From contig CAMVOY010000023.1 of the NCBI GenBank assembly GCA_947169235.1, positions 1-36,020 on the forward strand: DNA of 36,020 nt, written 5' to 3'. The stretch comes from an uncultured Lachnospiraceae bacterium. Its GTDB lineage: Bacteria; Bacillota; Clostridia; Lachnospirales; Lachnospiraceae. Position 1 is the stretch's first letter. Each line of letters starts with the position of its first letter. The notes under the pieces were generated by a model, which ran no database searches, was not told where the DNA came from, and saw only the letters and a list, made by a program, of their open reading frames with translations. A program made the position numbers and the translations under genes. Shown piece by piece: positions 30,685 through 34,486 of the stretch.

Positions 30685-32082
30685 ATGTATACAATCGATT
30701 TCAAAAAAGCAGGCGAGTCCTCTCATCCCCTGCACATCCACTTTATCGGTATCGGTGGTATCAGCATGAGCGGCTTCGCCGAGTTGCTCCACTCGATGGG
30801 TTTTGTCATCACCGGTTCCGACCGTGCAAAAAGCTCCATCACCGAGCATCTCGAGAGTCTCGGAATGACCATAGCATATGAGCAGGTAGCTGCAAACATC
30901 ACCGATGATATCGATGCTGTCGTATACACCGCTGCCATCCATCCTGACAATCCCGAATACGCCGAGTGCGTAAAAAGAGGTCTGCCGATGATGGAGAGAG
31001 CGGAGCTGATCGGACAGGTCATGAAGAATTACCAAACCGCCGTAGCCATAGCCGGCACTCATGGCAAGACGACCACAACCTCCATAGCTTCTCATATGTT
31101 CTTATCCGCAGGTCTCGATCCTACCATCTCGGTCGGAGGAATACTTCCGGTCATAGGAGGCAATATCAGGATCGGACACTCTCCGAACTTCATTACTGAA
31201 GCGTGCGAGTACACAAACAGCTTTTTGAAATTTTTCCCGACCATAGGGATCATACTTAATATAGAAGAAGATCATATGGATTTCTTCAAGGACATCGATG
31301 ATATCCGTAATTCTTTCAAACGATTCGCGGCACTGATCCCCGAGGACGGAACCCTGATCATCTGTGCTGACATCGATAACTACGAAGAGATCACAAAGGA
31401 TACCAACTGTAAGATAATATCCTTCTCCGCAACGAAGTCTGCCGACTACACAGCAAAGGATATCAGCTATGACGACCATGGCAATCCGACCTTCACTGCC
31501 GTAACGCCTGCCGGCGAGGCCGGACCGTATGCGCTGAAGGTACCGGGACTCCACAACGTCGGAAATACTCTGGCATGCATAGCTCTCGCTGATGCCATAG
31601 GTATAAATGGTGATGCGGTATCCGCCGCCCTCTCGGAGTTTAAAGGTACGGAGAGACGGTTCGAGTACAAGGGTACCACCCACGGCTTTACCATCATCGA
31701 TGACTACGCTCACCACCCGACAGAGATCAGAGCTACCTTGGAATCCGCAAAGAGATACCCCCACGAAAGGTTATGGGTCGCTTTCCAGCCGCACACATAC
31801 ACCCGAACAAAAGCGTTTTTGCCTGAGTTTGCAGATGCTCTGTCTGCAGCCGACCATGTGATCCTCGCAGATATCTACGCTGCGCGCGAAGCAGACCCCG
31901 GTGATATCTCTTCAAAAGACATCGCCGACCTCATAAATAGCCGCGGAGGAAAAGCAACGTATTTAGGCGGTTTTGAGGAAATCAAAAAATTTATTTTAAA
32001 AAATTTACTAGCCGGTGATTTGTTGATAACTATGGGCGCCGGAAACATAGTAGATATAGGAGAGGACCTTTTGGCTCAGTGA
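30685..32082 (+). CDS. murC: UDP-N-acetylmuramate--L-alanine ligase
   Basis: MurC adds L-alanine to UDP-MurNAc in the cytoplasm, the first amino acid of the peptidoglycan stem peptide. The 465-residue protein has the N-terminal UDP-binding GIGGISMSG, the ATP loop GTHGKTTT (124-131), the EACEYTNSFL segment, the NIEEDH motif, a DDYAHHPTEI segment and the C-terminal QPHTYTRT region. GGAGG lies before the ATG. A hairpin and then a run of DnaA boxes follow the stop codon; the next gene is a DnaD-like protein. Confidence 0.97.
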   Translation: MYTIDFKKAGESSHPLHIHFIGIGGISMSGFAELLHSMGFVITGSDRAKSSITEHLESLGMTIAYEQVAANITDDIDAVVYTAAIHPDNPEYAECVKRGLPMMERAELIGQVMKNYQTAVAIAGTHGKTTTTSIASHMFLSAGLDPTISVGGILPVIGGNIRIGHSPNFITEACEYTNSFLKFFPTIGIILNIEEDHMDFFKDIDDIRNSFKRFAALIPEDGTLIICADIDNYEEITKDTNCKIISFSATKSADYTAKDISYDDHGNPTFTAVTPAGEAGPYALKVPGLHNVGNTLACIALADAIGINGDAVSAALSEFKGTERRFEYKGTTHGFTIIDDYAHHPTEIRATLESAKRYPHERLWVAFQPHTYTRTKAFLPEFADALSAADHVILADIYAAREADPGDISSKDIADLINSRGGKATYLGGFEEIKKFILKNLLAGDLLITMGAGNIVDIGEDLLAQ

Positions 32083-32083
32083 C

Positions 32084-32283
32084 TTATGCACATTATCCAC
32101 CACCTTATGCACTTTTTCATCCGCAATCAGGTGGTGGATAATTTTTTGATCTTTTTTACTGTTCATAACTTTAATTCATATTATACTTGATGAGAATTCC
32201 CATTTTAAGGCACTTTCGGGATATTTTTCTACATAAATAGTCTGAGCGAAATCAGGTTGTCCACATTATGCACATTATCCACA
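32084..32283. promoter_or_regulatory. DnaA-box clusters around an AT-rich stretch
   Basis: Seven sites match the DnaA box TTATNCACA at eight or nine positions. Cluster A: 32084-32092 (perfect), 32093-32101, 32105-32113, and 32133-32141 on the minus strand. Cluster B: 32257-32265, 32266-32274 (perfect) and 32275-32283 (perfect), three in direct contact and in the same orientation. Between them lie about 115 AT-rich bases (32142-32256). This fills most of the 305-base gap between murC and the DnaD-like gene. DnaA binding is very likely; whether it serves replication start, titration or transcription control is open. Confidence 0.75.
32092..32148 (+). terminator. Terminator-like hairpin of murC, built from two DnaA boxes
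   Basis: A perfect 14-base inverted repeat (32092-32105 and 32129-32142, loop 23 bases) is followed by a run of seven T. Each arm contains a TTATCCACC near-DnaA box. It fits a rho-independent terminator for murC, although the loop is long. Confidence 0.6.
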
Positions 32284-32300
32284 ACCGTTTTCTACATAAA
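32225..32300. repeat. 13-base direct repeat flanking DnaA-box cluster B
   Basis: TTTTCTACATAAA occurs at 32225-32237 and again at 32288-32300, same orientation, start to start 63 bases. The three abutting DnaA boxes of cluster B lie between the two copies. Confidence 0.75.
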
Positions 32301-32320
32301 AAGAGCACACCCCGGGGGGT

Positions 32321-32349
32321 TTGCAACCTCTTTCACTTTGTGTTATGAT
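32321..32349 (+). promoter_or_regulatory. Promoter of the dnaD-dnaI-like operon
   Basis: TTGCAA (32321-32326) and TATGAT (32344-32349) are separated by 17 bases, 38 bases downstream of DnaA-box cluster B. Transcription should begin near 32356, which rules out a GTG at 32352 as the gene start. Confidence 0.75.
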
Positions 32350-32387
32350 ATGTGCAAATCGTTTTTATGAGGAGTGTGGATCCAAGA

Positions 32388-33506
32388 ATGGGTTTTATGA
32401 TCACCACTGACGGCACGCCGGGCAGCACCCAGGTGCCGAATGAGATATTGTTACATTATATATTGAGAGCAAATGGCGAGAACGTCAAGATCTATCTGTA
32501 CCTGCTCATGGCAAGCCAGAATCCGGGACTCACGGGTCAGGTTTCCGTTGAGACCTTAGCTGACAGACTCGATCTTACAGAACGCGATATCGTCAGATCT
32601 TTGCACTATTGGGAACGCGAAGGGCTCCTGACCCTGCTGACGGACGGCGATCACATCGTCGGTATCTCCCTTCACAATCCCGATATGGTACAGGCTGCTC
32701 CCGACACTACGCACACCTTTATCGAAACAGGTGCGCCTCATCTTCGTGTGCTTAACACGGAGCGTGATGCCAACGAGTACGAGGTACCGAAAGAACAGGC
32801 GACAAATGTGCCTGAACGTATCGAGTATACCCCGATGCAGATAGAGGCTCTGAGCAAGGATGTCGAGATGCAGCGAACTCTCTCACATATCGAGCAGGCT
32901 CTCGGTGCGCCTATCAGTCCGGCGCACATGCAGCTTGTCATGTATCTGATATGTGATCTCAGCTTTTCCGGAGATCTCATCTGCTATCTCTATGATCTGG
33001 CATCAGAGCGCAAAAAAACAAATACACGTTATATCGAAACCATCGCGATAAACTGGGCTGCAAAAGGAATACAGACTGTAGTTGACGCGAGAGCTGAGGC
33101 CTCTGACTTCGCCGGAAAGTATCGTCCGGTATCTCATGCGCTCGGCATCCACAGAGATTTTGCGCCTGCAGAAAAAGAGATCATTGATTCGTGGGATGCC
33201 TATGGTTTCTCTGATGAGATCATCACCGAGGCTTGCAAAAAAACCGTGATCCAGTCCGGCGATACAAACTTAAACTACGTATCAAAAATACTTGCCGGCT
33301 GGCATGAAAAAAATGTACACACACTTGATGACATCGCCCGCATAGACGAGGCATATCATAAATCCAGAAAAACGCGTTCTGCTTTAGCACAGAAAAAACG
33401 TTTGAATAACAACGCGTTCCAGAACTTCAAAGGCCGCGATTATACTGACGAAGATTATGAAGATATGGAACTTCAATTTCTTCAAAAGAGAAAGGGAACA
33501 CCATGA
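32388..33506 (+). CDS. DnaD-like primosome protein
   Basis: DnaD-type proteins bridge DnaA and the helicase loader at replication start in Firmicutes. The 372-residue protein has an N-terminal winged-helix region (ILLHYILRANGENVKIYLYLL, then SVETLADRLDLTERDIVRSLHYWEREGLL) and two DnaB_2-type helical modules. The first lies around PISPAHMQLVMYLI to INWAAKGIQT, the second from APAEKEIIDSWDAYGF to YVSKILAGWHEKN. The ATG at 32388 is used because the predicted transcript starts near 32356; AGGAG lies 13 bases before it. A second ATG three codons on is possible. The stop overlaps the start of the DnaI-like gene by four bases. Confidence 0.88.
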   Translation: MGFMITTDGTPGSTQVPNEILLHYILRANGENVKIYLYLLMASQNPGLTGQVSVETLADRLDLTERDIVRSLHYWEREGLLTLLTDGDHIVGISLHNPDMVQAAPDTTHTFIETGAPHLRVLNTERDANEYEVPKEQATNVPERIEYTPMQIEALSKDVEMQRTLSHIEQALGAPISPAHMQLVMYLICDLSFSGDLICYLYDLASERKKTNTRYIETIAINWAAKGIQTVVDARAEASDFAGKYRPVSHALGIHRDFAPAEKEIIDSWDAYGFSDEIITEACKKTVIQSGDTNLNYVSKILAGWHEKNVHTLDDIARIDEAYHKSRKTRSALAQKKRLNNNAFQNFKGRDYTDEDYEDMELQFLQKRKGTP

Positions 33507-34486
33507 ACCTCACGAACAGTCAATATGACCGTCTGATGGCCCGATATTCCGAGCGCAGACAGCGTGCTTCGGCAGGGCTCGATGAAAGACGTATCAAGGT
33601 ATACGCAGACATACCTGAGTTACGCGAGCTGGAGGCCAGGGCGCGTCACCTTTCATATGAATACGTAAAAAACCATGCAAAGAACACTGCTCTTTCCTCA
33701 AAAGAATTTGAGGAGAGGATGGAAGGCCTGAAGTCGGAACGCCTGATGCTGTTAAAGTCACATGGATTCGACGAGGACTATCTCGAGCCTAAATATGTGT
33801 GTCCCGACTGCAAGGATACCGGCTACATAGGCAATGAGAAATGCCACTGTCTGAAGAAGCAGGCTATAGAGTTATTCTACTCTCAGTCAGGTCTGAGTGA
33901 CGTGATCAAAGAGGAATCTTTTGATAAGTTTGATCTTTCTCTTTACCCGGAGGATATGACTGATCCTCTGACCGGGATGACCTCCCGCGCGATCATGAAG
34001 GATGTATATGATTCCTGCATGTGTTTTGTAAAGACCTTTGACGATGAGTTTGACAATCTCCTTCTCTACGGAGACACCGGCATCGGCAAGACATTTTTAT
34101 CACACTGCATTGCGGGCGAACTCCTCGCTGAAGGACACTCCGTTTTGTACCTGGATGCGATAAGATTTTTTGAGATACTGGAAGCAAGACAGTTTGACAA
34201 AGAATTAAACTATCAGGAAAAAAGCTCGATGTTTTCTTATCTTACCGAATGCGAGCTGCTGATAGTCGATGACCTCGGGACCGAGCTTACGAACAGCTTT
34301 ACGACAGTTCAGCTCTATCATGTTATCGAGAGACGACTGATGAACCGCCTGCAAACGATCATCACCACAAACCTGTCGATACAGGATATGAACGAGATAT
34401 ATTCTGAGAGGATCTTTTCCAGGATCGCAAAGAACTATCAGATGCTCAGACTGATCGGTGACGATATACGCCTGAAAAAATTATAG
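33503..34486 (+). CDS. DnaI/DnaC-like helicase loader ATPase
   Basis: Loaders of this family place the replicative helicase on DNA opened by DnaA. The 327-residue protein has a helical N-terminus (about 1-95), a zinc finger with C100, C103, C114 and C116, and an AAA+ domain with Walker A GDTGIGKT (190-197) and Walker B LLIVDDLG (252-259). The ITTNLS sensor 1 region and the ERIFSRI arginine-finger region follow. The zinc finger plus AAA+ order fits DnaI. Transposon IstB proteins share the fold, but no transposase is nearby and the gene is coupled (ATGA overlap) to the DnaD-like gene, which supports a replication role. Confidence 0.92.
   Translation: MNLTNSQYDRLMARYSERRQRASAGLDERRIKVYADIPELRELEARARHLSYEYVKNHAKNTALSSKEFEERMEGLKSERLMLLKSHGFDEDYLEPKYVCPDCKDTGYIGNEKCHCLKKQAIELFYSQSGLSDVIKEESFDKFDLSLYPEDMTDPLTGMTSRAIMKDVYDSCMCFVKTFDDEFDNLLLYGDTGIGKTFLSHCIAGELLAEGHSVLYLDAIRFFEILEARQFDKELNYQEKSSMFSYLTECELLIVDDLGTELTNSFTTVQLYHVIERRLMNRLQTIITTNLSIQDMNEIYSERIFSRIAKNYQMLRLIGDDIRLKKL

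Follow-up and report, generated by a model that had tools for sequence, protein, structure and literature searches.

In Bacillus subtilis, DnaA activates or represses its target promoters (PMC4447404, in the parts drawn on here), and boxes lie beside the promoters of sda, ywlC, ywcI, yydA, trmE and others, an arrangement repeated at the locus described below, which likewise belongs to a Firmicute. B. subtilis also carries clusters of DnaA boxes away from oriC (PMC5295017, PMC13220808), and the E. coli datA and DARS loci lie outside the origin (PMC5295017); both resemble the present locus in this respect, as far as the sections consulted extend. In Caulobacter, the dnaB helicase gene is named as a DnaA target (PMC8203912, sections consulted), so that there, as here, boxes precede a gene of the helicase stage. 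For E. coli, a preference of DnaA for tandem boxes separated by a gap of 2–3 bp has been described (PMC11317965, excerpted).

The window, by which we mean the whole stretch of 36,020 nucleotides that was analysed, is a complete contig of the draft genome of an uncultured Lachnospiraceae bacterium. It carries an array of DnaA boxes between murC and a dnaD-dnaI operon for helicase loading. With a probability of about three in four, this spacer constitutes a DnaA-controlled promoter region of the loader operon, a view that derives from sequence and its comparison among relatives. A sequence-only reading had listed such an operator among its options, and it is the one best supported by the conserved position and strand of the boxes and, above all, by their helical phasing to the promoter. 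To our knowledge, the coupling of loader supply to initiation has been little studied in Firmicutes beyond B. subtilis, and a search by titles and the opening lines of abstracts, conducted mostly outside the subscription literature, found no papers describing DnaA boxes ahead of dnaD. If the loader operon has a conserved DnaA operator, loader supply and initiation are connected by a link that can be tested. The way in which the spacing has evolved is sequence-level evidence that a bacterial initiator makes a phase-dependent contact at a promoter.

The DnaA boxes are real and occur at a density far above chance. All seven that had been claimed are present, including three exact matches, and an eighth, A5, can be added (Table 1). 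Eight boxes fall in the richest 200 bp of the window, against at most four in 200 first-order Markov windows with the composition of the window. Exact boxes number 86 (39 + 47) in the 2.37 Mb genome, against 54 for the reversed pattern, and inspection of the genome-wide match list revealed no second place with three exact boxes within 200 bp. The AT-rich core was also correctly recognised; it extends over 115 bp and ranks in the top 1.1% of the 115-bp stretches of the window. Cluster B comprises three abutting boxes on the dnaD strand with a gap of 0 bp. Tandem boxes accompanied by AT-rich DNA, as found in an oriC, are present in the murC-dnaD spacer, and so are several strong boxes outside oriC, as found in titration or timing clusters.

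Table 1. Features of the murC-dnaD region and of the second box site; positions refer to the window unless a genome or locus is named
Feature	Position	Strand	Remarks
murC (UDP-N-acetylmuramate ligase)	30685..32082	+	Pfam Mur ligase domains
Box A1, TTATGCACA (exact)	32084..32092	+	1 base past murC stop; position kept in genus alignment
Predicted murC intrinsic terminator, ATTATCCACCACCT / AGGTGGTGGATAAT hairpin and T-run	32092..32157	+	inverted repeat, covarying arms
Box A2, TTATCCACC	32093..32101	+	5' arm of predicted murC terminator
Box A3, TTATGCACT	32105..32113	+	12 bp after A2; genus alignment
Box A4, TTATCCACC	32133..32141	-	3' arm of predicted murC terminator
AT-rich stretch separating clusters A and B	32142..32256		71% A+T
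Box A5, TTATGAACA (1 mismatch)	32160..32168	-	TTATTCACA here in many same-genus loci
TTTTTCTACATAAATAGTC	32224..32242	+	genus-conserved element in AT-rich core; TTTTCTACATAAA repeat
Box B1, TTGTCCACA	32257..32265	+	
Box B2, TTATGCACA (exact)	32266..32274	+	
Box B3, TTATCCACA (exact)	32275..32283	+	ends 60 bp before dnaD -10
TTTTCTACATAAAAAG, second copy of conserved element	32288..32303	+	genus alignment; just past cluster B
-35-like TTGCAA, predicted dnaD promoter	32321..32326	+	similar element at same place in genus
Extended -10, TGTTATGAT, predicted dnaD promoter	32341..32349	+	
dnaD-like gene	32352..33506	+	PF07261, TIGR01446
dnaI/dnaC-like helicase loader ATPase	33503..34486	+	NF005304
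Second element, family genomes	L323-L341, about 2430-2600 of each turned locus		
Second element, window's genome	G000:C36:13906-14034		sequence model, E = 2.7e-5

The genes next to the boxes are those expected from the earlier description, a DnaD-like gene followed by a DnaI/DnaC-like one. The dnaD frame opens at GTG 32352, and the start that agrees with relatives in the alignment is ATG 32388. Several further elements occupy the spacer. Similar copies of the TTTTCTACATAAA element occur in the AT-rich core and after cluster B across the genus, and the element could be a DnaA-trio remnant or the site of another factor. A genus-conserved TTCTAC element lies between cluster B and the predicted dnaD promoter, and a GC-rich inverted repeat, CACACCCCGGGGGGTTTG, is found at 32298-32337, between cluster B and the -35; other inverted repeats were seen by eye at this place in some other genera. 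No Rfam match was found within 31500-32700.

The hairpin of cluster A is, judged from its sequence, an intrinsic murC terminator containing DnaA boxes. A hairpin with a T-run was found in 69 of 104 sequences by the rule used, and its arms change together, since base pairs beyond the box average 5.75 within species against 1.47 when arms from different species are combined. Cluster A had been described as four boxes; all four are present, but those at 32093 and 32133 are arms of this one inverted repeat and A2 and A4 are therefore not independent sites, so that a count treating all cluster A boxes as independent was rejected. The TTATCAACA match at 32021, at the end of murC, was excluded from the array as a conserved coding motif of that gene. 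Both this match and the covarying terminator arms would suit an explanation in which the boxes are not DnaA sites but by-products of coding sequence or the murC terminator. We consider this very improbable: A1, A5 and cluster B lie outside the stem, A3 is in its loop, and a terminator has no need of tandem boxes. Moreover, murC is followed by only eight scattered boxes in total within 600 bp downstream in the 17 genomes of other Clostridia families in which its end could be parsed; two of these are exact, one of them directly after murC in L309.

The check for boxes between murC and dnaD in related genomes, suggested by the sequence-only reading, recovered the array. At least four boxes occur in all 23 same-genus loci, contig-edge cases and the window's own locus included; the search covered 25 same-genus genomes, two of which yielded no DnaD match. 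In the usual geometry of the genus, cluster A consists of a box, a box at +9, a box at +12, an inverted box at +28 and another inverted box at about +28, and cluster B of two or three abutting boxes about 100 bp past cluster A, with individual boxes absent in places. Among 80 additional family genomes (79 other genera and one more of the window's genus), a murC match was located upstream of dnaD in all 80, within the stretch fetched, and murC ended at most 548 bp from the first dnaD ATG in 79. Spacers could be parsed in 77, the count omitting G045 and G050, which lack the murC end motif, and G125, where the operon was not parsed. Spacers of 60 bp or more (n=69) contain 5.12 boxes on average with one mismatch allowed; the mean is 0.49 after dinucleotide shuffling and 0.29 for stretches of dnaD of the same length. 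At least three boxes are present in 61 of these 69 and fewer than three in eight; the other eight of the 77 are shorter than 60 bp, and six of them have no box; some genera can therefore do without the cluster. Named records bear labels such as Lachnospiraceae, Eubacterium, Roseburia and Anaerostipes, and the array was found in Anaerostipes too.

Beyond the family, the array was sought in 20 other Clostridia families, each represented by a single genome, the choice being made among 118 searched. None had murC upstream of dnaD within the approximately 1.5 kb fetched, and none carried the array in the 800 bp upstream of dnaD, where 11 had no box and nine had one to four scattered boxes, none exact; nor was it found in the 600 bp downstream of murC for the 17 of 20 ends that were parsed. 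Tracking of the array with murC alone or with dnaD alone finds no support in these 20 families. Sixteen other families of the order were also searched and seven loci inspected: in L027, L029, L030 and L032 murC is on the locus and the array precedes dnaD, L031 and L033 have murC and fewer boxes, and L028 ends at a contig edge. In L027, murC ends about 1.3 kb away while the boxes are still just upstream of dnaD, which hints that the boxes travel with dnaD.

Two box clusters flanking an AT-rich core recall a replication origin, and a chromosomal or back-up origin away from dnaA had been put forward. It would also account for the paucity of boxes upstream of dnaA in the genus (0-3 within 700 bp, 14 loci) and for the GC skew of the window itself, which fades near 32 kb. 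The skew of longer contigs contradicts this proposal, which we regard as hardly credible: it switches at dnaA and keeps its sign across murC-dnaD. The sign changes at dnaA, in 5-kb bins, in all six dnaA contigs (five of the window's genus, one of another family) and is equal on both sides of dnaD in all four long dnaD contigs of 92, 129, 135 and 213 kb (three of the window's genus, one of another family). Examination of four same-genus relatives placed the cumulative minimum 1550-1701 bp past the dnaA start, within the dnaA-dnaN spacer or close to it; the value is 1830 for G031 and -144 for the short dnaA contig of the window's genome, a separate contig on which dnaA is divergent from rnpA and followed by dnaN. 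No skew switch matching the fading near 32 kb was seen in the close relative G011 (DnaD 95% and DnaA 98% identical), and the local dip is consistent with genes at that place whose transcription opposes the prevailing skew. The genomes compared are mostly drafts; in seven with both genes on one contig, with contig C1 of G125 treated as circular, dnaI lies approximately 137-666 kb from dnaA, and the loader operon, judged by strand, opposes the replication fork in six and is co-oriented with it in one. In an eighth genome, G127, dnaA and dnaI are on different contigs.

Box numbers upstream of dnaA differ between groups. With one mismatch allowed, the 700 bp counted contain 0-3 boxes in the 14 loci of the window's genus, the loci of other families contain 7-14 in ten cases and none in L064, and five loci from other genera of the family contain 9, 5, 6, 0 and 1. 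These counts cover dnaA loci L036-L050, L051-L064 and L266-L272, with the truncated loci L041, L053, L061 and L063 omitted. In the DnaA proteins of the same genus (L036-L048), N replaces D before the HTT/HST motif of the DNA-binding domain in 13 of 15 sequences, while D is present in all nine other-family sequences of the alignment; we take this residue to be equivalent to E. coli D433. The boxes keep the usual consensus.

Many genera of the family carry a second DnaA-box element (Table 1), formed by tandem TTATCCACATTATCCACA, preceded in most cases by additional boxes at distances of 12 and 53 bp and followed about 45 bp further on by a GAACnnACGTTTTGT-like stretch. An hpf-like gene (ribosome hibernation) follows it in 12 of 20 fetched sites and other genes elsewhere, the assignment resting on Pfam for one site and on BLAST grouping for the rest. 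One of the sites, L342, is an oriC. The element lies approximately 39-84 kb from dnaA in four genomes and 985 kb from it in G076.

Whole-turn spacing with a varying number of turns is a mark of protein contact on one face of the helix, and such spacing is found between cluster B and the dnaD promoter. Sixty-eight spacers were entered, leaving aside G095, G045, G050, G125 and the eight shorter than 60 bp; both a box and a TG-extended -10 were recognised in 58, of which 31 had at least two abutting boxes. In these 31 genera, the spacing between the last box and the -10 has a period of 10.0 with R = 0.87, or R = 0.76 (p = 0.006) when every distance is counted once. Genera share ancestry, and their counts overstate independence. 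In 30 genera the distances fall at 48-49 (6), 58-60 (5), 68-70 (14), 78-79 (4) and 90 (1) bp, with R = 0.93 at 10.1 bp; this set drops G079, for which the distance is 115 bp if the -10 search passes the first dnaD ATG by 30 bp and otherwise 69. The distances from cluster B to the ATG (R = 0.29) and from the -10 to the ATG (R = 0.22) lack the period, and 5000 permuted pairings gave R of at most 0.59. A further control, the first A box to the -10, was not flat, with R = 0.27 at 10.0 and 0.53 at 11.0 (p = 0.002).

Within the window's genus, where a looser -10 rule was used than for the 30 genera, cluster B is 59-60 bp from the -10 in 23 of 25 measured loci and exactly 49 bp in the other two. Among eleven sister pairs on the tree, this distance differs by 0-1 bp in five, by 9-11 bp in four, by 21 bp in one and by 46 bp in one, which is the pair with the 115-bp case. 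A prediction of phasing, fixed before new data were obtained, held by rule in eight of ten new genera (P = 0.0016 if independent) and in seven of ten when only the listed ranges were accepted (P = 0.011); the ten are those with tandem boxes among 18 new genera that were the best matches to one DnaD (L195) and are not fully independent. One of the eight successes, at 188 bp, is probably due to chance, and the failures were at 87 and 133 bp.

The spatial relation of boxes and promoter is thus conserved, though it weakens under another definition of the pair. When the last abutting pair is required to have at most one mismatch in both boxes, R falls to 0.67 for 44 loci and is 0.71 for the 37 loci under 100 bp, and p = 0.14 when every distance is counted once; with all last boxes, single ones included (52 loci, 40-95 bp), R = 0.56. 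In compact spacers, for example those of L185, L201, L208, L238 and L390, the last single box is located 52-54 bp upstream of the -10, a shift of about half a turn from the main 49/59 grid, and where these spacers have an abutting pair it lies at 66-67 bp.

Orientation and phasing also bear on whether the site serves as a DnaA sink or timing site, in which the boxes would hold DnaA and delay initiation at oriC, with the nearby promoter incidental. B. subtilis initiates early once six of its clusters are removed, as described in the portions consulted of PMC5295017 and PMC13220808, the boxes of the present array are numerous, the operon is remote from dnaA in the seven genomes described above, and the second tandem-box site is conserved in the family, all of which would suit a sink. 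The 120 genomes examined contain 150 exact tandem pairs, of which 76, spread over 52 genomes, lie within 3 kb upstream of dnaI, and all 76 are on the dnaD strand. A sink needs neither this placement on one strand nor the whole-turn promoter spacing that is observed. As the primary role, a sink appears unlikely to us, and it may be a side effect on top of an operator.

For the operator, the whole-turn phasing points to contact between DnaA and RNA polymerase and hence to DnaA control of the loader operon. From the sequence comparisons we infer DnaA binding, polymerase contact, use of the promoter and the sign of regulation as follows. DnaA would bind cluster B, whose three boxes abut and share a strand, and, from there, touch RNA polymerase at the promoter 60 bp downstream, and this contact would need cluster B and the promoter on a fixed face of the helix. 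The target promoter would combine a strong extended -10 with a weak -35, the best -35 match reaching 3.33 of 6 in spacers across genera against 2.47 at control positions. By our estimate, box B3 would lie about 77 bp before the expected transcript start, a position like that of activators which contact the polymerase from upstream, CRP being a known example. Because of this position, activation appears more plausible than repression, and a weak -35, a strong extended -10 and a cluster placed upstream would suit it, so that control is probably by activation. Cluster A sits in and around the predicted murC terminator, which would cut the loader operon off from murC and leave it to its own promoter, and DnaA bound to cluster A may also act as a roadblock, take part in a loop or serve as a further sink for DnaA.

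The same operator could act with the opposite sign. DnaA on cluster B, whether by itself or in a loop with cluster A, would then repress the dnaD operon, and high DnaA would mean less loader synthesis. Direct effects of DnaA named in the consulted part of PMC4447404 for B. subtilis are repression except at sda, and the distance from A to B is somewhat periodic, with R = 0.64 at 11.0. Set against this, cluster B lies upstream of the -35 and not over the promoter, the weak -35 suits an activated promoter, and R for the A-to-B distance is only 0.22 at 10.0 and 0.39 at 10.5. Repression therefore seems to us possible though doubtful. For the fuller proposal of direct activation through a helix-face contact with RNA polymerase across the Lachnospiraceae, we consider the case evenly balanced; it would form a feed-forward loop in which loader supply is tied to DnaA, retained in most genera seen while the spacing changed repeatedly by whole turns.

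The B. subtilis target regions named in the sections consulted of PMC4447404 do not include dnaB-dnaI or dnaD, and helical phasing to the promoter, seen here, is not mentioned there. The removal of six clusters in B. subtilis has a joint effect on timing, whereas here one cluster is tied to one operon through strand and spacing; the B. subtilis clusters are reportedly oriC-proximal (Okumura 2012). The bipartite oriC of Clostridia likewise has two box clusters and an AT-rich part and lies at rpmH-dnaA-dnaN rather than murC-dnaD (PMC7561715, as excerpted), with which the skew in the window's genus agrees. The E. coli datA and DARS loci act on the nucleotide of DnaA with IHF or Fis, and a promoter spacing rule is not mentioned for them in the consulted part of PMC5295017. 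In Caulobacter, which belongs to another phylum, the target is dnaB, in contrast to the loader operon here, and the portion of PMC8203912 consulted mentions no spacing rule. Finally, tandem pairs are shared with the double boxes of E. coli, and A2-A3 has the 3-bp gap preferred in that bacterium, while the boxes of cluster B differ from the 2–3 bp arrangement in that they abut directly.
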